The notes under the pieces were generated by a model. The model was given only the letters and a program-made list of their open reading frames with translations, was not told the origin of the DNA and did no database searches. A stretch of 39,687 nt of DNA, from positions 1 to 39,687 of IMG/VR virus record IMGVR_UViG_3300023440_000010, one strand, 5' to 3'. The DNA comes from a virus. A program made the position numbers and the translations under genes. This document shows positions 624 to 38,967 of this stretch, piece after piece. Position 1 is the first letter of the stretch. Every line of letters begins with the position of its first letter.

Positions 624-826
624 TTCTCCCCCTCCCTCGGCGCGAAGTCCCGGCAGTAGACCGCCCGTTCTTGGTCCTCCAGGATGCGCCAGTTGTTCGA
701 GTGCCCAACAGTCATGTAGGCCGGGACCGGGGCAAGGCAGCGGCCGATGGTTTCACGATCTGGGCGCGGCAGATCGAGGAAGTGGCGGCACGCGCTGCAA
801 AGCTGGTTGGTGCTGCCGTCGTTCAT
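620..826 (-). CDS. Small Cys-rich hypothetical protein, 68 aa
   Basis: The chosen start is ATG 826 (MNDGSTNQLCSACRHF), because GGAGGG lies just upstream and the ATG overlaps the preceding stop (ATGA, 823-826). It carries CxxC near residue 10 and further Cys near residues 32 and 60, which could bind a metal. The C-terminal CRDFAPREGEK resembles the end of small phage Cys-containing proteins, but no named family was recognised. Confidence 0.72.
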   Translation of the reverse strand: MNDGSTNQLCSACRHFLDLPRPDRETIGRCLAPVPAYMTVGHSNNWRILEDQERAVYCRDFAPREGEK

Positions 827-1170
827 GGCTTGCCCTCCAGCAGCTCCCGCGACTGCTCCGCGAGGTCCTGGGCCTTGCGCATCCGCCAGTAAAGATCTCT
901 GGTCGGATACTCGCCGTCCGGGTTGGCCTCCCACTTGACCCAAGCGGCGAGGGCGGCGCGGAGCTTCTCGACGTGCTCGACCGGAACCAGCCGGCCGCCG
1001 CACACGCGGCACTTCCACCGCTCGGCGCTCTCGGGCGCCTCCATGATCGTGCAGCAGTGTTGCTTCCTGAGGCGCTCCATCTCGGCCACCATGTCGTAGA
1101 TGAGTGCGAGTGCGCTATTCGGGAACAACTCCGCAAGGCGATCAATGGTGCGGTGTAGATCGTCGTTCAC
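823..1170 (-). CDS. Hypothetical protein with CxxC motif, 115 aa
   Basis: It starts at GTG 1168-1170, with a strong AAGGAGG inside the last codons of the upstream nuclease gene. The N-terminal half is helical (DRLAELFPNSALALIYDMV). A CRVCGG pair near residue 55 follows an HCC cluster, suggesting a small zinc-binding module. The C-terminal third is a charged helix. It sits immediately after the PD-(D/E)XK nuclease and is probably co-translated with it. The function is unknown. Confidence 0.75.
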   Translation of the reverse strand: MNDDLHRTIDRLAELFPNSALALIYDMVAEMERLRKQHCCTIMEAPESAERWKCRVCGGRLVPVEHVEKLRAALAAWVKWEANPDGEYPTRDLYWRMRKAQDLAEQSRELLEGKP

Positions 1171-1173
1171 TTT

Positions 1174-2151
1174 TCACACCTCCTTCCCCTGGTCCAGCGG
1201 ATGCCACACGTCCTCGCGCTTGAAGTTGGCCCGCAGCCAATTGTCCCAGCTTGATGGGCTGCGCGCCTCGATGCGCCGCAGCGCCGAGTCCCACATGCTC
1301 GTGGCCGGGTTCATCGCCTCGCACCACGCACCGTCCATGGCGAGCTGCTCGGCGAACCGCACCCAGCGGATGACCGTTCGCAGCCACAGCTCCCGCTGCT
1401 CGTCGGTGCGCACGATCTCGTTGCGCTCGAAGTTCGAGAAGCCGATGGCCGTCTGGCAGGCATCGACCAGCACGCCCTTGAGCGGCGTGTGCGCGCCGAG
1501 GACGAAGGCGCTCACCAAGTCGTAGGTCCAGACTTGGACGTTGGGGTCGAACCGCTGCCAGTAGTAGAGGCCCGAGACGGTGGTGGTGGTGTGCTTGTAC
1601 TCGCGCACCAGCAGGTCGCCGTCCTCGTCCTCCACGATGCCGTCGAGCGAGCCGGCGAGGATGTAGTCCTCGCCCGTCGGCGCCTTGAGTGGCTGCCCCT
1701 CTGGGTCGGTGAGGGGTAGGGCGAAGGGGTGCTCGATGCCAGGGGAGCCGTCGGCCAGCCGCACCGGGCGGTACTGCTCGTCCTCGCCGTAGTGGGCGTC
1801 GTACCAGATGATGGCGCGGATTAGGGTGGCGACGTTGCGCTTCCGCCCATCCTTCGCACCGACGGCGATCTCGTCCAGCTCCTCCTCCCACGCCTGCGCC
1901 ACCGCCCGAGTGAGCGCATCGACGAGGGCGTCCTCGCGCGTCCAGCCCTCTAGCCGGCGAAGCTGGTAGCGGTTGATGCCGACGTGGTAGAGGCCGCCCC
2001 AGAGGAGCGGCAGCGGCTTGGTGATGGGGCGCCAGCCCTCGACGTACTGCCAGAAGTAGACGAGGGGGTCGCGCATGAAGGTGTCGAGGGTGGTGGCGTC
2101 CCACACCAGGCGCAGGCCGGGGATCTCGCGGCTGAACTGCTCAGGCCGCAT
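1174..2151 (-). CDS. RecB/Cas4-like PD-(D/E)XK nuclease
   Basis: This 325-aa protein is read from ATG 2151 (MRPEQFSREIPG), which has GGAG seven bases upstream. It shows the RecB-family nuclease pattern: a His near residue 56, a GSLDG motif with Asp near 170, EYK (Glu 184, Lys 186) about 14 residues later, and a QxxxY motif near 206-210. Enzymes of this fold cut DNA, usually as exonucleases, with Mg2+. In this genome it could act with the Sak4-like ATPase (37700-38578) and the ssDNA-binding candidate (37206-37658) in recombination-dependent replication, or process concatemers. That link is inferred. It overlaps the upstream gene by 11 bases. Confidence 0.88.
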   Translation of the reverse strand: MRPEQFSREIPGLRLVWDATTLDTFMRDPLVYFWQYVEGWRPITKPLPLLWGGLYHVGINRYQLRRLEGWTREDALVDALTRAVAQAWEEELDEIAVGAKDGRKRNVATLIRAIIWYDAHYGEDEQYRPVRLADGSPGIEHPFALPLTDPEGQPLKAPTGEDYILAGSLDGIVEDEDGDLLVREYKHTTTTVSGLYYWQRFDPNVQVWTYDLVSAFVLGAHTPLKGVLVDACQTAIGFSNFERNEIVRTDEQRELWLRTVIRWVRFAEQLAMDGAWCEAMNPATSMWDSALRRIEARSPSSWDNWLRANFKREDVWHPLDQGKEV

Positions 2152-2908: not shown

Positions 2909-3176
2909 GAGACAGCTCTACCTCCAGCTCTTGGCCTTCGATTCTCTGCCGGCGGCCGAGGCGGCGCGCCGGCTTGACCTCTCCACTCAGACGGTTGAGG
3001 CGCTGCGGGCCTCGCCAGGCTACCAGACGGCCCTCGCCTCTAGGCGGAACCCTGCGCCTCCGAGAGCAGCAGCTCTGCCTTCTCCCGAATCTCGCGCGCC
3101 TTCTCCAGCATCTCCGGCGTCGGCTTCTGGGCCATCTCGAACTGCTGCTCGGCGTACCGCCGCGCCGCGTCGATGA
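2907..3176 (+). CDS. Doubtful divergent ORF with helix-turn-helix-like N-terminus
   Basis: This plus-strand ORF starts within the same CATG as the divergent minus-strand gene. Its first 45 residues fill the 131-bp gap between two minus-strand genes and resemble a helix-turn-helix (LPAAEAARRLDLSTQTVEAL), as in small terminase or resolvase-type domains. The rest runs antisense through the 3' end of 3040-3531 and is low-complexity Pro/Ala/Arg, typical of a shadow frame. It may be the remnant of a truncated HTH gene, or chance. Its direction opposes the whole operon. Confidence 0.25.
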   Translation: MRQLYLQLLAFDSLPAAEAARRLDLSTQTVEALRASPGYQTALASRRNPAPPRAAALPSPESRAPSPASPASASGPSRTAARRTAAPRR

Positions 3177-3531
3177 TGCGCCGACTCATCTCCACGTCGA
3201 GGCGCTCCTTGGCGAGGGCGTTCACCAGACAGCGCAGCAGCGTGTAGGCGCCGAGGTCGGCGACCGTGTGCGGAAGGGCGATGCCGCCGGGCGTCTCGAA
3301 CCACGGGCGGCAGGCGGCGAGGATCAGGATGTTGAGGACGTTGGCGAGGACGAACTCGGGGCTGCGCTCGTCGCCGTCGCCCTCCTCCCAGACGAGGCAG
3401 GCCTCGGCGTGGTCCAGCAGGGCCGCAGCCAGCTTGCGCAGCTTCTCGACACGCTGCTCGACGGGCAGCTCGGCCATGAAGGTGTCCATCGCCTCGTTCA
3501 GCACCTCGGCCACGTCTCGCTTCTCGCTCAT
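3040..3531 (-). CDS. Hypothetical helical protein, 163 aa
   Basis: The chosen start is ATG 3531 (MSEKRDVAEVLNEA), because GGAG sits about seven bases upstream and a promoter lies just before it. The protein is almost all helix: an N-terminal EQRVEKLRKLAAALLDHAEA region, a hydrophobic core (FVLANVLNILILAA), and a charged C-terminal helical pair. It was not recognised. It is the first gene after the promoter at 3570-3599, so it should be well expressed early. It could be an anti-host factor, but that is a guess from position only. Confidence 0.75.
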   Translation of the reverse strand: MSEKRDVAEVLNEAMDTFMAELPVEQRVEKLRKLAAALLDHAEACLVWEEGDGDERSPEFVLANVLNILILAACRPWFETPGGIALPHTVADLGAYTLLRCLVNALAKERLDVEMSRRIIDAARRYAEQQFEMAQKPTPEMLEKAREIREKAELLLSEAQGSA

Positions 3532-3569
3532 CTCATTCTCCGGTGTTGCTTTGCCAATCGGCAGGGTCA

Positions 3570-3599
3570 AGACTACAGCAGGGTGAGGTGCTTTGTCAA
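3570..3599 (-). promoter_or_regulatory. Sigma-70 promoter driving the leftward operon from 3531
   Basis: On the minus strand there is a perfect TTGACA (3594-3599), an 18-bp spacer, and TAGTCT (3570-3575), with transcription predicted to begin near 3563, about 30 bases before the start codon of 3040-3531. The -35 box contains the stop codon of the endolysin gene. The promoter at 38607-38635 has the same arrangement. Confidence 0.65.
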
Positions 3600-4153
3600 G
3601 GGGGTTCTGCGCTGGCGGCCAGAGCGGCGGCCATCCGCTCGGCCCGCGCCGGAACCTGCGTAGCCCACTCCGACTTCAACAGCTCGCGGGCGGCCTCGCG
3701 TAGCCGCCCCTCGGCCAGCAGCGCGTGGGTGCGCTCGAAGCCGGCCCATCCCGTCGCCCCGAGCTGGAACACCAGCTCCACCACTACACGCTGGGCGGCG
3801 TCCGGGAGGCGGGCGAACCACGGGTAGGCGGCGGCCGCCGCGTGGGCGCGGGCCACGTCCTCGCGTAGCAGGCGCTCGGCCACCTCGCGCGAGAGGGGCA
3901 CCTCCACGGCCACGCGCCCGCCTTGGCAGGTGTAGCAGTGGCCGTAGCCAATGCTCCAGTGGCCGCGGGCGTCGCGGTAGGGCAGGAGGCGCAGGCCCTC
4001 ATGCCGACGGATGCTGGCCAGCAGGGCCGGGTCGTCCGGCGGGATGGCCGCAGCGGCGGGCATCAGCAGGCCTAGGGCGAGGAACAGCAGGGCGAGGAGC
4101 GGCAGCGGCATGGAGCGATTGTGCCCTCGCGCGCGGGTGCGAGTCAAGCCCAT
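3596..4153 (-). CDS. Endolysin, GH24 (T4-type) lysozyme with N-terminal signal/anchor
   Basis: It hydrolyses peptidoglycan to lyse the host. From ATG 4153 (MGLTRTRARG) it is 185 aa; an ATG two codons earlier sits too close to the GGAGGGAG ribosome site. Residues 16-38 form a hydrophobic stretch ending AAAA, a signal peptide or signal-anchor-release segment, so export should not need a holin pore. The catalytic region has Glu 52 in RRHEG, Asp 61 in YRD, and GYGH, with Ser at the position where T4 lysozyme has Thr 26. The C-terminal VFQLGATGWAGF matches the family. It lies far from the spanins at 30.5 kb but on the same strand of the circular map. Confidence 0.93.
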   Translation of the reverse strand: MGLTRTRARGHNRSMPLPLLALLFLALGLLMPAAAAIPPDDPALLASIRRHEGLRLLPYRDARGHWSIGYGHCYTCQGGRVAVEVPLSREVAERLLREDVARAHAAAAAYPWFARLPDAAQRVVVELVFQLGATGWAGFERTHALLAEGRLREAARELLKSEWATQVPARAERMAAALAASAEPP

Positions 4154-4155
4154 CG

Positions 4156-4178
4156 ACATCTCCCTCCAGGGGGGGGGG
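4156..4178 (-). repeat. Third copy of the G-tract repeat, at the endolysin ribosome site
   Basis: The sequence CATCTCCCTCCA followed by ten G matches the two arms of the inverted repeat at 29148-29171 and 29305-29328. Read on the minus strand, it provides the GGAGGG ribosome-binding site of the endolysin. Confidence 0.8.
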
Positions 4179-4246
4179 TATGCGCGAGGCGCGGAGCGCC
4201 GAGCGCATCAGGAAGCGCACAGCCCCACCCCTCTCAGCCCTTCTCC

Positions 4247-4380
4247 GTCACACTCTGGGAACCCGCGGGCGGGGGCTGTTCCCCCTATAGGGGGAACAGA
4301 CGCCCCCGCGCTCGCTAGGACTTCCCTTGCAAATCAAGCACTTACGCGCCTTCGAGCCCAAAGTGTGACGCAAGTGTGAC
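4247..4380. other. Candidate replication origin: iteron-like repeats around a palindrome
   Basis: The 228-bp gap between endolysin and RepA-like genes (4160-4387) holds AGTGTGAC repeats. Two are direct copies at 4361-4369 and 4372-4380 (11 bp apart, one helical turn) and one is inverted at 4247-4254. They flank a large palindrome (4269-4309). Short spaced repeats beside a RepA-type helicase gene are the usual layout of an iteron origin. This is inference from layout; no activity is shown. Confidence 0.45.
4269..4309. repeat. Large two-step palindrome
   Basis: A perfect 24-bp palindrome at 4276-4299 (arms CTGTTCCCCCTA / TAGGGGGAACAG) is enclosed by a second 7-bp stem, GCGGGGG (4269-4275) with CCCCCGC (4303-4309). 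The two stems are offset only by a 3-base bulge. It could extrude as a cruciform, or act as an operator or as an RNA hairpin ahead of the endolysin gene. It has no T-tract, so it is not a standard terminator. Confidence 0.85.
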
Positions 4381-4387
4381 ATCGCGC

Positions 4388-5293
4388 TCAAGTATCTGAT
4401 TCGCCGGGGGTTTTCCCGCGACGGGCGCGGTTCCGGGCCTTCCGGCAGGCCGGTGAGCAGGTAGTGGCGCGCGAGTCCGCCTTGAGCGGCTTTCCGCACA
4501 CCTCGCAGAGCCGCCCATCGGTGAGCGTGAAGCGTAGCAGCCCCTTCTCGTCCGTCTCAAGCAGCATCCGCCACTCGGGCGGGCGGGGCAGGCCGCCGCG
4601 CGTCTTGTCCCATCGCGCCAGGAACAGGCTGCGCTCGGGCAGGGCCAGCTCCTGCTCCAGCACAATCGAGTAGTCGAGGTTGTCCTCGCGCGCGCTGGCG
4701 CCGCGCTGCGTACCGCCCTTGCCAGCGTGGTGGATCAGCAGGACCGACCGCTCGCCGTGCCTTAGCATGATGAGCCACTGCTTTATCTTGTCGATCTCTG
4801 CGTTGTCGTTCTCGTCCAGCCCATGCACCAGACTGACCCAATTGTCAAGGATCAGCACCTCGATCTTGTAGTGGGCCATCGCGGCGGCCAGCTCACGCCG
4901 GACGGGCTCGCGGCTCAAGTCGAGGTCGAACTCGGCGACCGCCGCGTCCTCGCTCGCGCAGATCCAGAGGTTGTGGAGCGAGCCGCCGCGCCCCTCGTGT
5001 AGGGCGGCGATGCGTTCGCGTAGGTCGCCCAAGGGCATCTCGCCGTCCACGTACAGCACGCGGCGAGCGGTCGGCACCCTGTAGGGCATCCAGGCGCCGC
5101 CATCGGCGACCGCGAGCGCGAAGTCCAGCGCCGTGAAGGTCTTACCCGAGCCCCGCCATGCGTACAGCATGCCGAGGCTCGGGTGGGGGATGCAGCTCTC
5201 GATCAGCCACGTCCGGGGCGGCACGTCGCGGGCTAGGAACTGCTCCGCCGGCTGGATAACGCCGCGGAGCGTGGGGCGGTGGCACTCAGCCAT
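4388..5293 (-). CDS. RepA-type RecA-fold helicase/ATPase with C-terminal zinc finger
   Basis: This 301-aa protein resembles the AAA_25/RepA hexameric helicases. The Walker A motif is AWRGSGKT (residues 45-52), with the family YVDGEMP strand near 81-87, Walker B VLILDN (146-151), and LLIHHAGKGGTQRG (186-199), the histidine motif typical of RepA. The last 40 residues add a CxxC...CxxxC zinc finger (CEVCGKP, CSPACRKARNRAR) that probably binds DNA. It would unwind DNA at replication forks. No primase was found, so priming would use host or unrecognised proteins. It starts at ATG 5293, overlapping the previous stop by eight bases. The candidate origin lies directly downstream. Confidence 0.88.
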   Translation of the reverse strand: MAECHRPTLRGVIQPAEQFLARDVPPRTWLIESCIPHPSLGMLYAWRGSGKTFTALDFALAVADGGAWMPYRVPTARRVLYVDGEMPLGDLRERIAALHEGRGGSLHNLWICASEDAAVAEFDLDLSREPVRRELAAAMAHYKIEVLILDNWVSLVHGLDENDNAEIDKIKQWLIMLRHGERSVLLIHHAGKGGTQRGASAREDNLDYSIVLEQELALPERSLFLARWDKTRGGLPRPPEWRMLLETDEKGLLRFTLTDGRLCEVCGKPLKADSRATTCSPACRKARNRARRGKTPGESDT

Positions 5294-31175: not shown

Positions 31176-31204
31176 ATGGTAGCACCGGCACGCCCGCATC
31201 ACCA
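31176..31204 (-). promoter_or_regulatory. Candidate promoter of the lysis/envelope block
   Basis: On the minus strand TACCAT (31176-31181), preceded by TGC as an extended -10, lies 17 bp from a weak -35 (TGGTGA, 31199-31204). It occupies the 53-bp gap ahead of 30810-31145 and overlaps the stop of the phosphoesterase gene. Confidence 0.45.
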
Positions 31205-32425
31205 CAGCTCCGAGAACGGGCTGGCGATGATCGGCATCAGCCAGTTGATCCCGAGGCGCTCGTGGACGGTGAAGGCCACCTGGATCGGGGGCTCGTAGGG
31301 CAGGAGCCTCATGCCGCCGTACTCGTCGTGGCCCTTGAGCGTCCCGTTGACCACGAGGCGCCGGTTGGCGATGAAGGTGTGGTGGTGGCCGCACACGAGG
31401 ATGTCGTAGCCCTCGCGCAAGGGGGTGAGCACGGCCGAGTGACGCTTCCGCACGTCGCCCCGCATGATGGGGCCGATGGGGCCGATGATGCCGTCGCCGC
31501 CGATGAAGGAGTCGCCGTGGGTGAGGCGGATGGTGTGGCCAGCCACGCGCAGGGTCACGTCCGGCGCCACCGGGAAGTGGCAGGACACCCGCTCGTCGTC
31601 CTTGAGCAGCAGCTCAAGCATCTGGCAGACCAGCCAGTCGAAGGAGGTGTGGGCCTTGCCCTTGGCGCGGTTGCGCTTGGTGATGCGCCCGTGGTTGCCC
31701 GGCACGCCCCACACGTCCACGCGGCCGAACTCGCCGGCGAGGAAGCGGAGGGCGGCGCCGAGGTGCTCGATCACGTCGCGCACCTGCGCCATCATCTCGA
31801 CCTCGTTGGTAGCCAGCAGCTCCTCGTGGATGCTGCCCGAAATGAGATCCCCGCCCAGCAACACGACGATGCCCGGGTAGGTGTCGTCGTGCCGGAGATG
31901 GGCGAGGAACAGCTCGGACGCCGTAGTTACGACCTCCTTCAGGCGGGCACGCGCGACGGCGAGGTTGTAGCCGTTGAGGCCGCCCATCTCGGCGCTGTCC
32001 ACGCGCTCGCCCCAATGGAGGTCGGACAGTACCAGGACCGGCGTGCCGGGCGCGTGGGCCTTCGGCTGCGCGGCCACCCACTCCGGGATGGCATAGTCGA
32101 TGTCGGTGAGGTGCCCGATGGCTCGGCGCACCCAGGCGGCATCGACCTCCTGCGTTCGCAGGCGCGCCAGCTCGGCACGCAAGTCCTTGATGATGCGCTC
32201 GGCGTCCAGCGGCGTCTCGCGGGCGCGGAGGGCGTCCTCCTTGCCCCGCAGGGCGTAGACGTACATGCGGCCCGAGCGCGCCGCCACCACCTTCCCCAGC
32301 CGCTTGAGGTCGCCCAGCGCCCGCCGCGCGGAGGGCAGCGGCACGCCGAGGAGGGATTCCGCCTCGGCGGCCGTCAACGTGCCTCGGGCAGCGAGCGCAT
32401 CGAGGATGCGGCTGCGCGCGCTCAT
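31199..32425 (-). CDS. Winged-helix/metallophosphoesterase fusion, 408 aa
   Basis: From ATG 32425 (MSARSRILDALAARG), residues 1-60 form a winged helix-turn-helix (TLTAAEAESLLGVPLPSARR, then wing strands KVVAARSGRMYVYAL). A calcineurin-like phosphoesterase follows: LSDLHWGE (Asp 135, His 137), LLGGD (Asp 193), VPGNHGR (Asn 244, His 245), LTHGDS (His 303) and VCGHHHT (His 347, His 349), a full two-metal site. Such enzymes cut phosphodiesters in DNA, RNA or nucleotides (for example SbcD/Mre11, lambda phosphatase). Fusion to a DNA-binding domain points to a DNA or regulatory substrate; that is inferred. The gene before it encodes a similar stand-alone winged helix. Confidence 0.88.
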   Translation of the reverse strand: MSARSRILDALAARGTLTAAEAESLLGVPLPSARRALGDLKRLGKVVAARSGRMYVYALRGKEDALRARETPLDAERIIKDLRAELARLRTQEVDAAWVRRAIGHLTDIDYAIPEWVAAQPKAHAPGTPVLVLSDLHWGERVDSAEMGGLNGYNLAVARARLKEVVTTASELFLAHLRHDDTYPGIVVLLGGDLISGSIHEELLATNEVEMMAQVRDVIEHLGAALRFLAGEFGRVDVWGVPGNHGRITKRNRAKGKAHTSFDWLVCQMLELLLKDDERVSCHFPVAPDVTLRVAGHTIRLTHGDSFIGGDGIIGPIGPIMRGDVRKRHSAVLTPLREGYDILVCGHHHTFIANRRLVVNGTLKGHDEYGGMRLLPYEPPIQVAFTVHERLGINWLMPIIASPFSELW

Positions 32426-32426
32426 G

Positions 32427-32645
32427 CTACACCCGCTGGTACATGTTGTGCGGGCGCCGACTGCCGTGGGCGCGAACCGTCCCGGCGAAGCCGATGCGCT
32501 TGGCACGCTGGAGGCGCCGCAGCATCTCCTTCGCCGCGCCGGGCGTGATGCCCACCTGCTCGGCCACCGCCCGGGACGTGATGGGCGTCGCCGAGCGCGT
32601 GACCACGCGCTCCACCTTGTCGATGATCAGGGCTTTCTTGGTCAT
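32427..32645 (-). CDS. Small winged-helix DNA-binding protein, 72 aa
   Basis: The ATG at 32645 overlaps the polymerase stop (ATGA) and has AAGGAGG. The protein is one winged helix: helix 1 (ALIIDKVERVVTRS), then ITSRAVAEQVGITPGAAKEM as the helix-turn-helix, LRRLQRAKRIGF, and a wing ending NMYQRV. It looks like the N-terminal domain of the following phosphoesterase, so the pair may come from duplication. It could be a replication initiator, regulator or partner of the phosphoesterase. Confidence 0.78.
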   Translation of the reverse strand: MTKKALIIDKVERVVTRSATPITSRAVAEQVGITPGAAKEMLRRLQRAKRIGFAGTVRAHGSRRPHNMYQRV

Positions 32646-34051
32646 GAGACCTCCTTCCAGTTGCTGCCGACTTTCCATTCCCACGGGATGACCATCACGC
32701 GCCCGTTGATGTGCCACTCGACGCGGCACATCGCCAGCACGCGAGGCTCCCACTCCGACCACTCCCCTCTGAACTGGAGGAGCACGCCGTCGTGCGTGTG
32801 CATGAGGAGCTGGAAGTCGGTCGAGTCCAGCTCCCGCCACAACCGCACAAAGACGATGTGATTGGTCCAGGCGATGAGGCTCTGGGGCAGGTGGGCGACC
32901 GCCTCCTTCAGCGTGGAGGGGTCGTGCGGGTTGGCGAAGAACTGTCGGCGGTAGCCGAGCAGGTCGATGCAGCCCGTCGATGCAAGCTGCTCGCGAATCG
33001 TTTCGTGCCACTTGCGGATGCGCGGGAAGGCGGCGAAGTAGCGTTCCTGCGCCTCCTGCACCGCTTGCACCGGCAGGCCCGTCTCGCGCGCGAGGCCGTG
33101 CGGGCTGCCCACGTAGTTCGAGCCGTGCTGGATGCGCTTGCTCACGTCGTAGCGCGACCAGTGCCGGATGAAGTTGGGCTCCTTCGCCAGCGCGAGGTCG
33201 GCCTCGTCGTCCCCCGACCAGCCGGCCTCCGGCCACAGCATCCGCGCGACGATGAGGTGGGTGTTGCCCTCCTCGTGGGCGCGGATGTAGCCCTCGTCGC
33301 CGGAGAGGTAGGCGACCGCGCGCGACTCGGCCCGCTCCTGGTCGCCCTGCGCCATCGTGTAGCCCGGGTCGGGGATGTACATCGAGCGCAGGCGCTTCGT
33401 CTGGTTCTGGAGGTTGGTGCCGTCGCCCAGCGGGGTGCTGGAGGAGCTGGCCCGGAACGTCTCCGTCGCGCCGACGTTGATGCTGCCGCGCATCCGGTCG
33501 CTGCGCGCCCGCGCGCCGAGCGCCGCCAGCAGCTTCCCGTGCTCGCGCGACTCCCGCACCAAGCGGCACACCTCGGCGGCCACGTCCTTGCGCCGCCGGA
33601 TCTCCTTGCGGTCGGCGGCCGGATCGTCCACGGCGACCGCGCGCTTCTCGAAGCGCCGCAGCACCTTCTCGTCGGTGCCGAGGCCGCCGCTCTTGCCCCG
33701 CTGGGGGCGCATCCGCAGCTCCTCGTACAGCCAGTCGCGCAGCTTGGCGGTGGAGATGGCCTTCTCGCCCGACAGCTTCACGCCGGCCAGGCGCTCGGCC
33801 TCCTCGATGCAGCGGCGCACGTCGGCGCGCAGCTCCTTGAGCTTGATCTTGCGCTCGCGCTGGTCGAGGCGGATGCCTCGGAGCTGGACGGCGAGGAAGG
33901 CCGCTTGGATGGCCTTCTCGGCGCGGTAGACGCGCGTTGCGGTTGCGTCGGCGTCGAGCTTGGGCGCGAGGGCGCGGGCGACCTCCCAGGTGACGCAGCA
34001 GTCGAGGCCGTTGTAGGTCCAGCGGCGCTCGGCGGCGGGCGGGATGTGCAT
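32642..34051 (-). CDS. DNA polymerase, family A: exonuclease motif III plus polymerase domain
   Basis: The 469-aa protein starts abruptly near the end of a 3'-5' exonuclease domain: WTYNGLDCCVTWEVA contains the Exo III pattern Y13-x3-D17, but Exo I and II are absent and lie on 35860-36957. The polymerase motifs follow: A, GDQERAESRAVAYLSGD (Asp 237, Glu 242, Arg 244); B, KRIQHGSNYVGSPHGLA (Lys 305, His 309 at the Phe762/Tyr526 place, Tyr 313); C, MHTHDGVLL (His 420, Asp 421; Gly replaces the usual Glu). The ATG at 34051 overlaps the stop of a 25-aa peptide gene. It should copy phage DNA; proofreading would require the partner protein. Confidence 0.9.
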   Translation of the reverse strand: MHIPPAAERRWTYNGLDCCVTWEVARALAPKLDADATATRVYRAEKAIQAAFLAVQLRGIRLDQRERKIKLKELRADVRRCIEEAERLAGVKLSGEKAISTAKLRDWLYEELRMRPQRGKSGGLGTDEKVLRRFEKRAVAVDDPAADRKEIRRRKDVAAEVCRLVRESREHGKLLAALGARARSDRMRGSINVGATETFRASSSSTPLGDGTNLQNQTKRLRSMYIPDPGYTMAQGDQERAESRAVAYLSGDEGYIRAHEEGNTHLIVARMLWPEAGWSGDDEADLALAKEPNFIRHWSRYDVSKRIQHGSNYVGSPHGLARETGLPVQAVQEAQERYFAAFPRIRKWHETIREQLASTGCIDLLGYRRQFFANPHDPSTLKEAVAHLPQSLIAWTNHIVFVRLWRELDSTDFQLLMHTHDGVLLQFRGEWSEWEPRVLAMCRVEWHINGRVMVIPWEWKVGSNWKEVS

Positions 34052-34128
34052 CAGTCCAGCGCCTCCAGCACGAACAGCAGGGCAATCAGCCCCACCACGA
34101 TCAGGCCGATGGCGTCCATCTCGCTCAT
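34051..34128 (-). CDS. 25-aa transmembrane micropeptide
   Basis: ATG 34128 has GGAGG seven bases upstream and overlaps the methyltransferase stop (ATGA). Its own stop overlaps the polymerase start (TGATG). The peptide begins MSEMDAIGLIVVGLIALL and is nearly all one membrane-spanning helix with acidic ends. Perfect packing between two coupled genes and a strong ribosome site argue that it is translated. Its role is unknown; it may be regulatory, or may anchor or couple synthesis. Confidence 0.65.
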   Translation of the reverse strand: MSEMDAIGLIVVGLIALLFVLEALD

Positions 34129-34625
34129 GCCTTGGCCTCCTCCCGCAGATCCCACACCCGCACCATCGGGCTGGCCGTCTGGCGCCAGCGCGAGCCGAAC
34201 AGCACCACCATCGAGCCGAATGGCGGGCTTCCCGCGGCGCCGACGAAGCGCACCCGCGGGCGCAGGAAGGAGATGGAGAGGGCGTGTGGGAACACCGCCT
34301 CGTGGAACCAGCGCGTCGAGGTGTCGGAGGGCAGGAGGGCGACCACCTCGCACAGGCGCGTGCTGGCGCCCCACGTCTCCTCGATGGCCTTGGAGATCCA
34401 TCGCTCCGGCGCGCTGTAGGGCGGGTTCATCCAGCACCGCCCGTACCACGGCAGCACGAGCGAATCGTCGGCAGGGCTGAAGAACTGCCGACACTTTGTG
34501 TTCGCCTCGGTGGCGCACACGTCGAGGTTGAACTCGCCGAAGCGCCGGACGCAGGCGTTGAACAGCCAGTCGGGAGTCTCCCACTCGTCGCCGGGGCCGC
34601 TTCGGGCCTTCTGGAAAGCGTGCAT
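34125..34625 (-). CDS. Phage N6-adenine DNA methyltransferase (Dam-like)
   Basis: It transfers methyl from S-adenosylmethionine to adenine in DNA. The 166-aa protein shows the phage Dam family start DEWETPDWLFNACVRRFG, then FNLDVCATEANTKC, and the catalytic CWMNPPYS motif (NPPY) near residue 68. PPFGSMVVLFG is near the end. The size is typical for the phage family. It probably protects phage DNA from host restriction, together with the ArdA-like protein. It lies inside the gene group separating the two polymerase parts. Confidence 0.9.
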   Translation of the reverse strand: MHAFQKARSGPGDEWETPDWLFNACVRRFGEFNLDVCATEANTKCRQFFSPADDSLVLPWYGRCWMNPPYSAPERWISKAIEETWGASTRLCEVVALLPSDTSTRWFHEAVFPHALSISFLRPRVRFVGAAGSPPFGSMVVLFGSRWRQTASPMVRVWDLREEAKA

Positions 34626-34628
34626 CGC

Positions 34629-34820
34629 TCAGTCCTCCAGTCTCTCCATCCACTCAGCGAACTGCGCCACGGTCGCCTCGATGCGGTCCAGGCGCACTTC
34701 CAGCGCGCGCCGAGCGACGCGCTCCTTCCACAGTTGGGCGTTGAGCACGCCGAGTGCCCCACGCACGCTCTCCAGCTCATGGCGCAGCTTGTGCACCTTC
34801 TGCTCAGCCTTCTTGCCCAT
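34629..34820 (-). CDS. Small coiled-coil protein, 63 aa
   Basis: ATG 34820 (MGKKAEQKVHKLRHE) overlaps the previous stop (TGATG), and GGAGG lies eight bases upstream; a GTG one codon earlier is possible. The whole protein is heptad-like (KLRHELESVRGALGVLNAQL, LEVRLDRIEATVAQFAEW), predicting a coiled-coil dimer. No family was recognised. Confidence 0.7.
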   Translation of the reverse strand: MGKKAEQKVHKLRHELESVRGALGVLNAQLWKERVARRALEVRLDRIEATVAQFAEWMERLED

Positions 34821-35209
34821 CACTTCGCCCTCCGCAGCGGCGCCACCTTGCCCTCGGGAGGCGAGGGCGCCTGATCGGGCGGCCGATCATCCACCGTCCC
34901 AGGCCGCGGCATGATCTTCTCCTCCAGCAGGCGCAGGATGTTCCAGGCGGCGAAGGCGAGGTGGTCGATCTCGAAGCCGGCCTTCTTCGCCTCGGAGTCG
35001 TACTCCACGCGGCTCATGGAGGCGAGCATGTGCCGGCGCGCCGCGCTGTAGGACTCGCTGTAGGGCGCACCCTTGAGGTAGTTGTAGGGAGCGTACTTCT
35101 TGGCGCCGTACTCGAACACGCGGGCCACCTCGCGCAGGGCGTGGGGGAAGGTGTCCAGGTAGTGGAGCTGGGGCTTGCCCGCGTCGTGGCGCATCGCTCG
35201 CTCGGCCAT
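34820..35209 (-). CDS. dATP/dGTP diphosphohydrolase-like protein, 129 aa
   Basis: ATG 35209 (MAERAMRHDAGKPQ) has GGAGG upstream. The pattern MRHDAGKPQLHYLD, VARVFEYGAKKYAPYNYLKG, SAARRHMLASM, then DHLAFAAWNILRLLE matches the phage dGTP/dATP diphosphohydrolase domain, an all-helical MazG-like fold whose acidic/His residues bind metal. It would lower certain purine dNTPs. In 2-aminoadenine phages a related enzyme accompanies PurZ, but no PurZ is present here. It is probably part of a dNTP-pool module with 35209-35601. Confidence 0.8.
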   Translation of the reverse strand: MAERAMRHDAGKPQLHYLDTFPHALREVARVFEYGAKKYAPYNYLKGAPYSESYSAARRHMLASMSRVEYDSEAKKAGFEIDHLAFAAWNILRLLEEKIMPRPGTVDDRPPDQAPSPPEGKVAPLRRAK

Positions 35210-35601
35210 CACTCGTCCTCCTCCGCCTCGCGGAGCAGCAGTTGCCACTCCATATCCTCAAACATCCACTGCACGTCGTAGTAGGCGATGGGCTTGCGCA
35301 TCTTCTTGAACCACACGATCTCGTGCTTCACCCCGATGCTCTTGTCCCAGCCGGGGAGCTGCCCCACCACCAGCAGACTGCAGTTCGTGGCGAAGGCGTA
35401 GTCGTGCTCCAGCCACCAGTCCATCAGGTGGTTGCCAATCTCCTCCTCAATGGGCACGGTCATGGCGATGGGGGCGAACACCCGCCAGCCCATCTTCATC
35501 AGCTCGCCGGCGATGCGCGCCGAGGCGCGGAAGCGCAGCTCACGCACGCGCGGACTCGGATGGCTGTAGGGGGTGGCGAGGTAGATAAGGGGCTTAGCCA
35601 T
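35209..35601 (-). CDS. DUF1937-like nucleoside deoxyribosyltransferase-fold protein, 130 aa
   Basis: From ATG 35601 (MAKPLIYLATPYSHPS), the sequence IYLATPYSHP, then GWRVFAPIAMTVPIEEE, then NCSLLVVGQLPGWDKSIGVK and a late Glu (HEIVWF) match the DUF1937 family, related to nucleoside 2-deoxyribosyltransferases and DNMP hydrolases. It may cleave or exchange bases on (deoxy)nucleotides. It overlaps the gene upstream by eight bases and the diphosphohydrolase start downstream (TGATG). Confidence 0.8.
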   Translation of the reverse strand: MAKPLIYLATPYSHPSPRVRELRFRASARIAGELMKMGWRVFAPIAMTVPIEEEIGNHLMDWWLEHDYAFATNCSLLVVGQLPGWDKSIGVKHEIVWFKKMRKPIAYYDVQWMFEDMEWQLLLREAEEDE

Positions 35602-35860
35602 CGCCCAGATCCTCGAACACGTCGCCCGCCTGGCGGCGCTTGCCATTCTCGTAGGGGGCGACCACGCGCCGGAAGAACTCGGCCTTGGTGCTTTCGAGTG
35701 CGCCGAGCACCTCGGCGAAGGTGATGTATGAGCGTCCGCACGTCTTGACGTACTGGACGCAGAGGCGCGCCACCTGGAACGACAGCTCGCCGGCGACGCG
35801 CGCCGCCGCCTCGGGGCGGGGCTCCAGCATCGCTCGCTTCGTCTTGGGGATGTAGGGCAT
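35594..35860 (-). CDS. DUF6899-like conserved phage protein, 88 aa
   Basis: ATG 35860 overlaps the stop of the UDG/exonuclease gene (TGATG). The family pattern is clear: YIPKTKRAMLEPRPEA, GELSFQVARLCVQYV, GRSYITFAEVLGALESTKAE, FFRRVVAPYENGKRRQAGDV. This small protein is common in phage replication and nucleotide-metabolism blocks, and its function is unknown. Confidence 0.8.
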   Translation of the reverse strand: MPYIPKTKRAMLEPRPEAAARVAGELSFQVARLCVQYVKTCGRSYITFAEVLGALESTKAEFFRRVVAPYENGKRRQAGDVFEDLGDG

Positions 35861-36957
35861 CACTCGTCCCTCTTGCCTGTTGAGGCCCCCGCCCCGCGCA
35901 TCAGCTTCCACGAGGGGAAGTTGGTGTAGAGCGAGCCGAGGGTCGCCAAATCCTTCTTCAGCTCGGGGAACAGGGCGTGGTGCATGAGGCGGGTGTCGTC
36001 CACCCAGCCGCGCACCTGCACGCGCCAGTGCTCCCACAGCCAGTGTACGTCGTAGGCGCCGTTCTGGAGCACCTTGTGGAAGGCGGGGTTGGTGAGGAAC
36101 TCGCCGATGGCGAGCCGCGCCTCCAGCTCCTCCTCGGCCGTGCGCCAGTAGGAGGTGCCGCGCGGGAGGATGGTGAACGGGACCACGAGGGCGCGCGCCG
36201 CCGAGGGCGCGAAGCCGATGCAGTCGATCTCCCCCTTCGCCGTCTCGATGTCCACGGCCACCAGCCCGCCCGGCTGCACGTGCTCTCTCAGCCACTGGCG
36301 CACCTGCTCGGGCGACTGCGCCACGGTGATCTCGGGCGAGGGCGCCGCCTCCAGCTCGCCACTCGCGGCCCGGGCAATGTCCGCCCAGATGAAGGTGCGG
36401 TGGTGCGGGTTGCCGTGGAGGACGCTCGCCGGGTGGTAGGTGGGGATGACCTTGAGGCCCGGCACGAGCACGCAATCGTGGACCGTCCCGCGGATCTTGG
36501 CCACCTTGCCGCTCGGCGCGATGCGCAGCAGCGCCCAGATGGCCGTCGCCCCGAGGGCCACCACGCAGCGCGGCGCAGCCTTCTCCAAGTCGGCGGCGAG
36601 GGCGGGCAGCACCTCCTCGACCAGCTCCGGTGGGATGTAGGCTCCTGAGTCTATCGCGATGCGCGACCACTCGTGCCACGTGCTGCCCTCGCACTCCTCC
36701 AGCTCCGCTTGGACGACGCGCCGCGGCTTGCTGATCCGCTTCACGTCGTTGCGCGGCAGCTTGAAGGAGAACACGTTGCCGACGAAGCAGTCCCAGCGGC
36801 TCACGTCGGCAGCGTGCAGGATGCCGTTCAGGAGGCGGCCGGCCGGCCCGACGAAGGGGCGACCCTTCACCTCCTCCAAGTCCCCCGGCGCCTCGCCCAC
36901 CAGCGCGATGCGGGCGGGCAGCTCCCGAGGCCACTCGTTGGGGACGGTTCGCGTCAC
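35860..36957 (-). CDS. Uracil-DNA glycosylase domain fused to 3'-5' exonuclease motifs I and II
   Basis: From GTG 36957 (GTGA overlap with the previous stop) it is 365 aa. Residues 17-195 resemble family 4-type UDGs: GEAPGDLEEVKGRPFVGPAG (21-40) and YHPASVL (174-180). The four Fe-S cysteines of family 4 are not evident. Residues 230-355 are the DnaQ-like exonuclease of family A polymerases: Exo I, VAVDIETA (Asp 236, Glu 238), and Exo II, LQNGAYDVHWL (Asn 299, Asp 303), then DDTRLMHHALFPELKKDLAT. It stops before Exo III, which opens the polymerase gene at 34051. Intact phage polymerases with UDG-exo-pol order are known, so this looks like one enzyme split in two. Confidence 0.88.
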   Translation of the reverse strand: MTRTVPNEWPRELPARIALVGEAPGDLEEVKGRPFVGPAGRLLNGILHAADVSRWDCFVGNVFSFKLPRNDVKRISKPRRVVQAELEECEGSTWHEWSRIAIDSGAYIPPELVEEVLPALAADLEKAAPRCVVALGATAIWALLRIAPSGKVAKIRGTVHDCVLVPGLKVIPTYHPASVLHGNPHHRTFIWADIARAASGELEAAPSPEITVAQSPEQVRQWLREHVQPGGLVAVDIETAKGEIDCIGFAPSAARALVVPFTILPRGTSYWRTAEEELEARLAIGEFLTNPAFHKVLQNGAYDVHWLWEHWRVQVRGWVDDTRLMHHALFPELKKDLATLGSLYTNFPSWKLMRGAGASTGKRDE

Positions 36958-37699: not shown

Positions 37700-38578
37700 C
37701 TACTTTCTGAGGGCCTCCACGATGGTCCAGAGGGAGTCCGCTGGCACCTCCACCGGGAGGGACTTCGGGGGTACGGGCACCTTCACGTCCACGTCGTCGT
37801 CCGGCACGGTGGCCAGGACGCGCCGGGCCGCTTGGCCCTTGCCGACGCGCTTCGCCTGCAACACCACGGAGAAGTAGCCGCCGATGCGCGGCGGGAGCTT
37901 CTGGCCGAGGGTCGCCGGGTAGCGCATCAAGAGGTTGTCGGGGAGCTTGCGCGCGGCCGCCGGCTTGCCGCTGGCGCCGCCGCTCTCCTCGTCGTCCTCG
38001 ATCTCGTCCTGCGACAGCCGCATCAAGTGGGCCGTCACGATCATGTTGATGGGAAGGGAGCGGAGCATCTGGATGGCCCCCTCCACCTTGTCGATGGCCA
38101 CGCCCCAATCCTTGAGGCGGCGCGGCCGGCCGCCCTTCATGGAGGTGCCGAGGCGGCCCGCCTTGTGCAGGGTGTGCCACATCGCTGCGTGGCTGAACGA
38201 CGTGAGCGGGTCGATGACCAGCCAGTCGTTCGGCCCCCAGGACTCGGGCGGGCCGTAGTCCTCGCCCGTCTCGCTGTCCACCCACGACTTCACCAGCTTG
38301 ACGAAGCCGGCGAAGGCCGTCGGGCGCCCCTCAACCGTCGGATTGCCCTCCTTGTCGAAGCGCACCTTGTCCACGAGGGTCTCGTAGATGAGGTTGTCGT
38401 GGAACTCCTTGGGGACCAGTTTGAAGATGGGGTCGAGGTTGTCGTCGAAGTCGCACACGAACAGGCGCTGGCCGTGCGCAAGGAGCGACCCGTAGGCGCA
38501 GGTCTTGCCGGCGCCTGGGTCGCCCACGATGAGGATGCGTGTGCTTTCCTTCGAGCGATGGGATGAACCCTTGGGCAT
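37700..38578 (-). CDS. Sak4-like RecA-fold ATPase (AAA_24), 292 aa
   Basis: From ATG 38578 (MPKGSSHRSKESTRIL), with AGGAG upstream, Walker A GDPGAGKT lies at residues 19-26 at the extreme N-terminus, as in Sak4 single-strand annealing ATPases. FVCDFDDNLDPIFKL follows, then a Walker B-like DWLVIDPLTSFSHA near residue 118, then a sensor-like INMIVTAHLMRL near 180. Sak4 proteins aid recombination and repair of phage DNA, usually with an SSB encoded next door, as here. A consensus promoter precedes the gene. Confidence 0.82.
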   Translation of the reverse strand: MPKGSSHRSKESTRILIVGDPGAGKTCAYGSLLAHGQRLFVCDFDDNLDPIFKLVPKEFHDNLIYETLVDKVRFDKEGNPTVEGRPTAFAGFVKLVKSWVDSETGEDYGPPESWGPNDWLVIDPLTSFSHAAMWHTLHKAGRLGTSMKGGRPRRLKDWGVAIDKVEGAIQMLRSLPINMIVTAHLMRLSQDEIEDDEESGGASGKPAAARKLPDNLLMRYPATLGQKLPPRIGGYFSVVLQAKRVGKGQAARRVLATVPDDDVDVKVPVPPKSLPVEVPADSLWTIVEALRK

Positions 38579-38606
38579 TGTCTTTTCTCCTCTCGCTTCG
38601 GGAGGT

Positions 38607-38635
38607 ACTTTACTGCGAGGCGGGGTGGCTGTCAA
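38607..38635 (-). promoter_or_regulatory. Sigma-70 promoter for the DNA-metabolism block
   Basis: On the minus strand a perfect TTGACA (38630-38635) lies 17 bp from TAAAGT (38607-38612), with a start predicted near 38600. The -35 box contains the stop codon of 38632-38967. It should drive the Sak4-like ATPase, the ssDNA-binding candidate, UDG-exonuclease and later genes. Confidence 0.75.
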
Positions 38636-38967
38636 CCCGCCTCGCCCAGCCACTCGAAACGATCCGCCTGCGCCTCAGCGGCCCGCGCCGCCATCTCGTC
38701 GTCGGCCTCCTCGGCAACCTGATCCATCCACTCGGCGACGGCTGCCTCGTCACCGATCATGGCGTACACGGCCTCGGGGTCGAGGTAGTGGCGCGTGCCG
38801 TTCGCGCCAGCCACCCACGCCTCGACGATCTCGACCTCGGCCGGCTCGGGCGGGTAGCACAGCTCGGGCGGGCCGCTCATGCGCCCGGGGTCGGCGGGGG
38901 TGATGTCGCAGACCACGTGGATTGTGGTGTCGGGGATGATGGTGGTTTCGTAGTCACGGATGAGCAT
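38632..38967 (-). CDS. Conserved hypothetical protein, 111 aa
   Basis: ATG 38967 follows GAGGAGG. It begins with strands (MLIRDYETTIIPDTTIHVVC) and has the segment DITPADPGRMSGPPELCYPP, a run resembling hypothetical proteins found in several phages and prophages. It ends with a strongly acidic helix (AAVAEWMDQVAEEADDEMAA). The function is unknown. Confidence 0.75.
   Translation of the reverse strand: MLIRDYETTIIPDTTIHVVCDITPADPGRMSGPPELCYPPEPAEVEIVEAWVAGANGTRHYLDPEAVYAMIGDEAAVAEWMDQVAEEADDEMAARAAEAQADRFEWLGEAG

Follow-up and report, generated by a model that had tools for sequence, protein, structure and literature searches.

Background

Proofreading exonucleases are normally complete in one polypeptide chain. 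Phage enzymes that join a uracil-DNA glycosylase (UDG) domain, an exonuclease and a polymerase (UDG-exo-pol) are already known (PMC7412058), and the intact polymerases of the PHROG_17 type, such as Pseudomonas phage PaBG gp205, MW202489 and vir526, are made as one chain. Here we describe a relative of these enzymes in the IMG/VR virus record IMGVR_UViG_3300023440_000010, the whole stretch of which (39,687 bases) we refer to as the window. It shares their domain order, their motifs and, by profile, their family, but its chain is cut between the second and third exonuclease motifs (Exo II and Exo III). Judging from sequences and structure models, this is probably a family-A polymerase of two separately translated subunits, which would form the proofreading site in trans.

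Several phages are known to divide replication enzymes between genes. In the LUZ24/PaP3/tf phages, exonuclease and polymerase are likewise encoded apart (PMC3517423), but LUZ24 gp25 holds all three exonuclease motifs (with YCLQD as Exo III, by inspection) and is therefore cut off between domains, not through the active site, whereas the window exonuclease half is without Exo III. The OM43 phages MEP401 and MEP402 (PMC10580990) and Vibrio phage VS-ABTNL-3 also encode a family-A polymerase in two open reading frames (ORFs) with a small gene between them; there the break lies inside the polymerase domain, with the exonuclease domain on ORF1, whereas the polymerase domain of the window is whole. 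Split phage replication enzymes of other families include Aeromonas phage 25 gp43A/43B, a T4-like family-B polymerase whose halves copurify and are active, and the NrdA of Aeh1, which is active when split (PMC2988022); both are associated with homing endonucleases, whereas no homing-endonuclease family was found among the genes inserted in the window by Pfam and PHROG searches. ExnV1, from an Icelandic virus metagenome, is a Pol I-type 3'-5' exonuclease without a polymerase domain, but a single chain supplies its entire active site, including the equivalent of Klenow Asp501 (PMC9629493), in contrast to the divided site of the window. We also considered phiEco32 gp33 as a parallel exonuclease subunit and rejected it, as it gave weak matches to 5'-3' exonuclease families instead. 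Split phage polymerases are known, and a break through the exonuclease site appears undescribed, with no description of such a cut found in the open-access literature searched, a body mostly without subscription papers.

One polymerase encoded by two genes

The two window genes encode a UDG-exonuclease half (exo half) and a polymerase half (pol half). We found that the exo half matches Pfam UDG over residues 15-194 (E 5.8e-20) and DNA_pol_A_exo1 over residues 216-347 (E 2.4e-5, profile positions 7-130 of 173), and since the latter match stops at position 130, the C-terminal end of the exonuclease domain is missing from this protein. The pol half matches DNA_pol_A (E 4.8e-22) and covers positions 4-381 of the 381 in PF00476. 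When compared with the PHROG_17 polymerase profile, the exo half matches positions 537-788 and the pol half 807-1232; these are adjoining parts of the profile, and the halves therefore make up one polymerase from which nothing substantial has been lost. The PHROG_17 UDG-exo-pol enzymes are single polypeptides, whereas the window has two ORFs lying 1.8 kb apart with six genes between them. All catalytic residues of Exo I, II and III are present in the window, divided over the two proteins, and neither protein carries a complete exonuclease domain as judged by Pfam, PHROG and the motifs.

The original prediction, made from the sequence of the window, had described a split polymerase gene, and its coordinates, strand and motifs are correct according to Pfam, PHROG_17 and the conserved residues. 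The order UDG-ExoI-ExoII-ExoIII-Pol that it obtained by joining the halves is that of the known UDG-exo-pol phage polymerases, and its suggestion that the proofreading site would have to be built from two proteins gains support from both the sequences and the models described below.

A lineage of phages has conserved the break

We searched 50,697 phage records with tblastn and found UDG-exo relatives in few of them. The sole window-type split among the relatives inspected was that of Caulobacter phage Kuura, an isolate with a complete genome, in which the exo half Kuura_029 (annotated as a "hypothetical protein") is followed by two small genes and the polymerase Kuura_026; the Kuura genome paper mentions a DNA polymerase only (PMC9959647). 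Profile scans of IMG/VR yielded 156 loci, whose ORFs were classified with two hidden Markov models (HMMs). Among the classified loci, 100 are split at the Exo II-III linker (window and Kuura included), 45 are intact and 7 are split elsewhere, with nearly all of the 100 linker-split sequences being metagenomic. Removal of near-copies and partial polymerase cores left a nonredundant set of 77 split and 32 intact loci. In GTDB we found six contigs of metagenome-assembled genomes and no isolate, five split as in the window and one inside the polymerase domain. The same split is thus found widely among relatives, which the original prediction had proposed to survey, though the inserted genes vary.

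The break point is constant. The exo ORF stops approximately 10-25 residues past a nearly invariant W-K and the split pol ORFs typically begin 21-28 residues ahead of the Exo III Tyr, so that exo tail and pol leader together exceed the W-K to Tyr spacing of intact enzymes, which is mostly 18-20 residues. The position assigned to the window break, in the Exo II-III linker, is accordingly the one seen in all 100 split sequences. In two loci nothing is inserted at all: L002 (3244-3251) has a single in-frame TAA between the halves and a new ATG preceded at seven bases by GGAGG, and L104 (5955-5959), which belongs to the main split lineage, has a single TAA followed directly by ATG. In L102, the exo half (703-1722, minus strand) and the pol half (3011-4534, plus strand) lie on opposite strands approximately 1.3 kb apart; if this is no misassembly, these halves could be joined only at the protein level.

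We next placed the splits on a quick IQ-TREE tree, with junction columns left out and long outgroups removed. A branch with support of 100 separates the window, Kuura and those main-lineage splits that were sampled from the other sequences, and L002, L039 and L055 are split within an otherwise intact lineage. A single origin for all splits was rejected (approximately unbiased test, p-value 5.4e-8), which together with the separate placement indicates at least four breaks at the same linker; L058, on a long branch, is a possible fifth fission. The exact position of the window in the tree is unsure owing to its long branch and unusual composition. The split has been conserved in a lineage of phages.

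Related polymerases are also broken at other points. A second recurrent split lies just before motif A (...NLQNIPKGDE* / M-LPNIRxMFIPDPG...) and was observed in L031, L033, L047, L052, L060, L066, L078, L168 and VS-ABTNL-3 (L172), the inserts being, by reading, MazG-like, HNH-like, methyltransferase-like or ribonucleotide-reductase-like genes. A third break point is seen in L173 (MW202554.1, 1727-4364), after Exo III and between the exonuclease and polymerase domains, with a gap that holds an NrdR-like zinc-finger reading frame, also by reading.

Catalytic residues are kept on both halves

D236, E238, N299 and D303 are invariant among 46 aligned exo halves, and in the 46 aligned pol halves D17 and the motif B residue K305 are invariant and Y13 is conserved in more than 90%. 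Across the nonredundant split contigs, the Exo I Asp and Glu, the Exo II Asn and Asp and the Exo III Asp were each present in 77/77 and the Exo III Tyr in 76/77. Because one fetching scan relied on an Exo II pattern, we repeated the count on 54 contigs fetched through a polymerase motif, and all exonuclease catalytic residues were found in 54/54 except the Exo III Tyr (53/54). The polymerase residues Asp228 (motif A) and Asp421 (motif C) are present in all split (77/77) and all intact (32/32) loci. With the key exonuclease residues kept on both proteins, the halves very probably must join to proofread.

Residues in the UDG motifs vary across the split lineage, with the Pro of GEAPG often being Trp and the His of the HP motif retained in 50/77; as this variation occurs in the very same proteins, the exonuclease is under stronger constraint. 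Loss or change of UDG function, with the exonuclease kept, may be under way in this lineage; the window UDG has both motifs. A UDG-like part is also present in the phiLo family-A polymerase (PDB 9qhs).

The halves also travel and change together. Wherever more than 1.5 kb of sequence is available upstream of a split pol half, an exo half is found, and the five pol-only loci have less than 1.5 kb. Exo and pol distances are correlated with r 0.79 (42 contigs, length-matched columns), whereas for the deoxyribosyltransferase-like gene between the halves the same comparison with pol gave r 0.47.

The pol half is a genuine gene. A ribosome-binding-site-like sequence precedes its start in 45/75 cases, in contrast to 89/1577 (5.6%) internal start-like codons, with a mild bias from taking the first start that has such a site, and a loose N-terminal motif of the M-x-I-I-x-T type fits 64/75 pol halves. 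In the window, GGAGG lies 10 nt upstream of the pol ATG. The exo half ends in a conserved KxxDE tail that could serve as a binding peptide. The DNA encoding it, however, looks like a ribosome-binding site of the following gene: within the final 24 nt of the exo ORF, 63/77 contigs have a Shine-Dalgarno-like sequence, versus a background of 18%. Amino-acid conservation there is therefore not readable as function.

Predicted structures

As L104 is interrupted by one stop codon, it was modelled as one chain with AlphaFold, reading the TAA as Gln at residue 318, and the alignment used for structure prediction left out the Kuura row. The read-through model has a predicted local distance difference test score (pLDDT) of 93 and a predicted template modelling score (pTM) of 0.90, and its best solved match is the Pol I of Thermus phage G20c (Z 32.5, root-mean-square deviation (rmsd) 3.9 over 556 residues). 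The sole internal stretch below 50 pLDDT is 312-319, which contains the stop; the start motif of the pol half forms a short strand (322-324), and a long helix (336-361) carries Exo III. The break is thus predicted to fall in a disordered loop of an otherwise confident exo-pol fold. The window UDG-exo half modelled alone reached a pLDDT of 89.4 and a pTM of 0.84, with only the last 12 residues below 50, and its UDG part is closest to UdgX (Z 19.9, rmsd 1.8 over 161 residues).

Genes between and around the halves

The features of the locus are collected in Table 1. Each of the six inserted genes overlaps or almost touches its neighbour, and the methyltransferase and deoxynucleotide enzymes expected among them were recovered as members of the Dam, DUF1937 and dATP/dGTP diphosphohydrolase families. 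The number of inserts in split relatives ranges from none up to approximately five genes, and the six genes of the window are therefore not essential to the split. Inserts are often nucleotide-pool enzymes. The deoxyribosyltransferase-like gene lies between the halves in 55/77 split contigs by HMM, as well as in L096, L111 and L010 by further matches, and within the fetched stretch in 1/32 intact loci; its link with the split state is confounded with descent. Overall, the halves behave as partners, while the genes lying between them turn over.

Downstream, the next gene (31199-32506, minus strand) encodes a winged-helix and calcineurin-like phosphoesterase protein that matches the phage exonuclease family phrog_284. 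A Sak4-like ATPase (phrog_124) is encoded upstream of the UDG-exo gene (37700-38653, minus strand), and the annotations of Kuura, Tiera and vir526 likewise place an ATPase or helicase gene upstream of the polymerase.

Table 1. Features of the split polymerase locus, in window coordinates
Feature	Position	Strand	Basis
UDG-exonuclease half, 365 residues, without the last (Exo III) helix	35860..36957	-	Pfam UDG and DNA_pol_A_exo1; PHROG_17 537-788
UDG domain, family 4/UdgX-like fold, residues 15-194	36376..36915	-	Pfam UDG; structural match UdgX
Exo I, Asp236 and Glu238 (DIET)	36244..36252	-	Conserved residues
Exo II, Asn299 and Asp303 (NGAYD)	36049..36063	-	Conserved residues
Disordered C-terminal tail of the exo half, purine-rich DNA	35860..35898	-	pLDDT <50, residues 354-365
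Inserted gene 1, 87 residues (MPYIPKTKRAML...), no family found (Pfam, PHROG)	35594..35859	-	
Inserted gene 2, nucleoside 2-deoxyribosyltransferase-like (DUF1937)	35209..35601	-	Pfam, PHROG
Inserted gene 3, dATP/dGTP diphosphohydrolase N-terminal domain family	34820..35209	-	Pfam PF18909, E 4.4e-20
Inserted gene 4, putative coiled coil, 63 residues	34629..34820	-	Coiled-coil matches, all sub-threshold
Inserted gene 5, Dam-type adenine methyltransferase	34125..34625	-	Pfam Dam, E 5.2e-33; orphan methyltransferase models
Inserted gene 6, hydrophobic, single membrane-span-like peptide of 25 residues; stop overlaps the pol start	34051..34128	-	Sequence
Polymerase half, 469 residues, Exo III helix and family-A polymerase domain	32642..34051	-	Pfam DNA_pol_A; PHROG_17 807-1232
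Exo III, Tyr13 and Asp17 (YNGLD)	34001..34015	-	Conserved residues
Polymerase motif A, catalytic Asp228	33368..33370	-	Conserved residue
Polymerase motif C, catalytic Asp421	32789..32791	-	Conserved residue

Alternative explanations

Most cases come from metagenomic contigs, and the inverted exo half of L102 could be a misassembly, which raises the question of a sequencing, assembly or binning artefact. This has next to no chance of being the explanation and is refuted for the lineage as a whole, as the isolate Kuura carries the same break in its complete genome, and approximately 100 contigs are broken at this point and have downstream starts that are independent; the break is therefore not due to chance or assembly error, and the objection that the window is a chimeric assembly fails with it. 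It is also very unlikely that the working enzyme is a single chain whose halves are rejoined before acting, be it through a self-splicing intron, a split intein or ribosomal bypassing. Group I introns are frequent in phage polymerase genes and have been cited for LUZ24 (PMC3517423) and the OM43 phages (PMC10580990), and HNH-like genes were seen, by reading, at the L039 break and near the L102 exo half. However, we found no Rfam intron at the gathering score in the window, Kuura, L002, L039, L055, L058 or the second-type split loci, and a gathering search of six and eleven further loci returned tRNAs in L012 only, although divergent introns could be missed. The 12 residues before the window Exo III Tyr leave no room for an intein half, and by reading the exo tail has none. 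RNA or protein splicing is unlikely on these two grounds. Further points against rejoining are the six overlapping genes that occupy the window break, the lone stop codon between the halves of L002 and L104, and the separate start of the pol half, which in many cases has a ribosome-binding-site-like sequence.

Proofreading may instead have been lost, leaving an exonuclease-free pol half and a UDG-exo half with another role, such as repair. Stand-alone viral exonucleases exist (ExnV1, PMC9629493), the exo half is predicted to fold confidently alone, and the window UDG has kept its GEAPG and HP motifs. The metal site of Klenow-type exonucleases depends on the Exo III Asp. If the polymerase no longer proofread, this residue, which lies on the pol chain, would be free to change, yet it is conserved in 77/77, and the Exo I and Exo II residues are also invariant, which makes such a loss unlikely. 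We give a small chance to an adaptive split, in which the phage would change its proofreading through the proportions of the two proteins, in line with the tuning by stoichiometry suggested in the original prediction, or through swapping of the UDG-exo subunit. At least four independent fissions at one linker fit either a benefit or a permissive site, the L104 split persists without an insert and nucleotide-pool enzymes are often among the inserts. A break-tolerant flexible loop, however, explains the recurrence without benefit, and the tight co-variation of the halves disfavours exchange. Furthermore, breaks occur at two other loops in related polymerases; tolerance of loop breaks is therefore general in the polymerase family, which weakens division of the exonuclease site as the point of the split. 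That the split is a working regulatory device, with fidelity set by the supply of the UDG-exo subunit and nucleotide-pool enzymes co-expressed from between the halves, is similarly improbable.

Some observations weigh against assembly in trans. The fused-chain model of L104 presupposes that the halves meet, co-variation among neighbouring genes can stem from shared descent, and the N-terminus of the window pol half, with 12 residues before Tyr13, is shorter than the typical leader of the lineage, which has 21-26 residues.

A proposed proofreading polymerase assembled from two subunits

The sequences show that the split is real, inherited and recurrent, and that both halves are conserved. In the assembly that we favour, two subunits would be encoded in one tightly overlapping gene run, the former consisting of the UDG and most of the exonuclease domain and holding Exo I and Exo II, the latter consisting of the last exonuclease helix and the polymerase and holding Exo III. 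The halves would be translated separately and then associate, with the Exo III helix of the second subunit completing the metal site of the first and presumably yielding a working proofreading polymerase. Such assembly in trans is plausible, because split T4-like replication enzymes reassemble (PMC2988022). The gene would have undergone one break in the ancestor of the lineage to which the window belongs and several more in a sister lineage, each time within the flexible Exo II-III linker and probably through genes inserting there, with the pol half later acquiring its own start and ribosome-binding site.

A divided exonuclease site together with repeated fissions at one loop lends itself, as a natural experiment, to studying how enzymes turn into obligate complexes. 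As ready-made two-part polymerases, these enzymes could allow proofreading to be studied, or switched, by adding one subunit. Finally, "hypothetical protein" labels such as that of Kuura_029 can conceal half a replicase, and searches based on single ORFs miss such enzymes.

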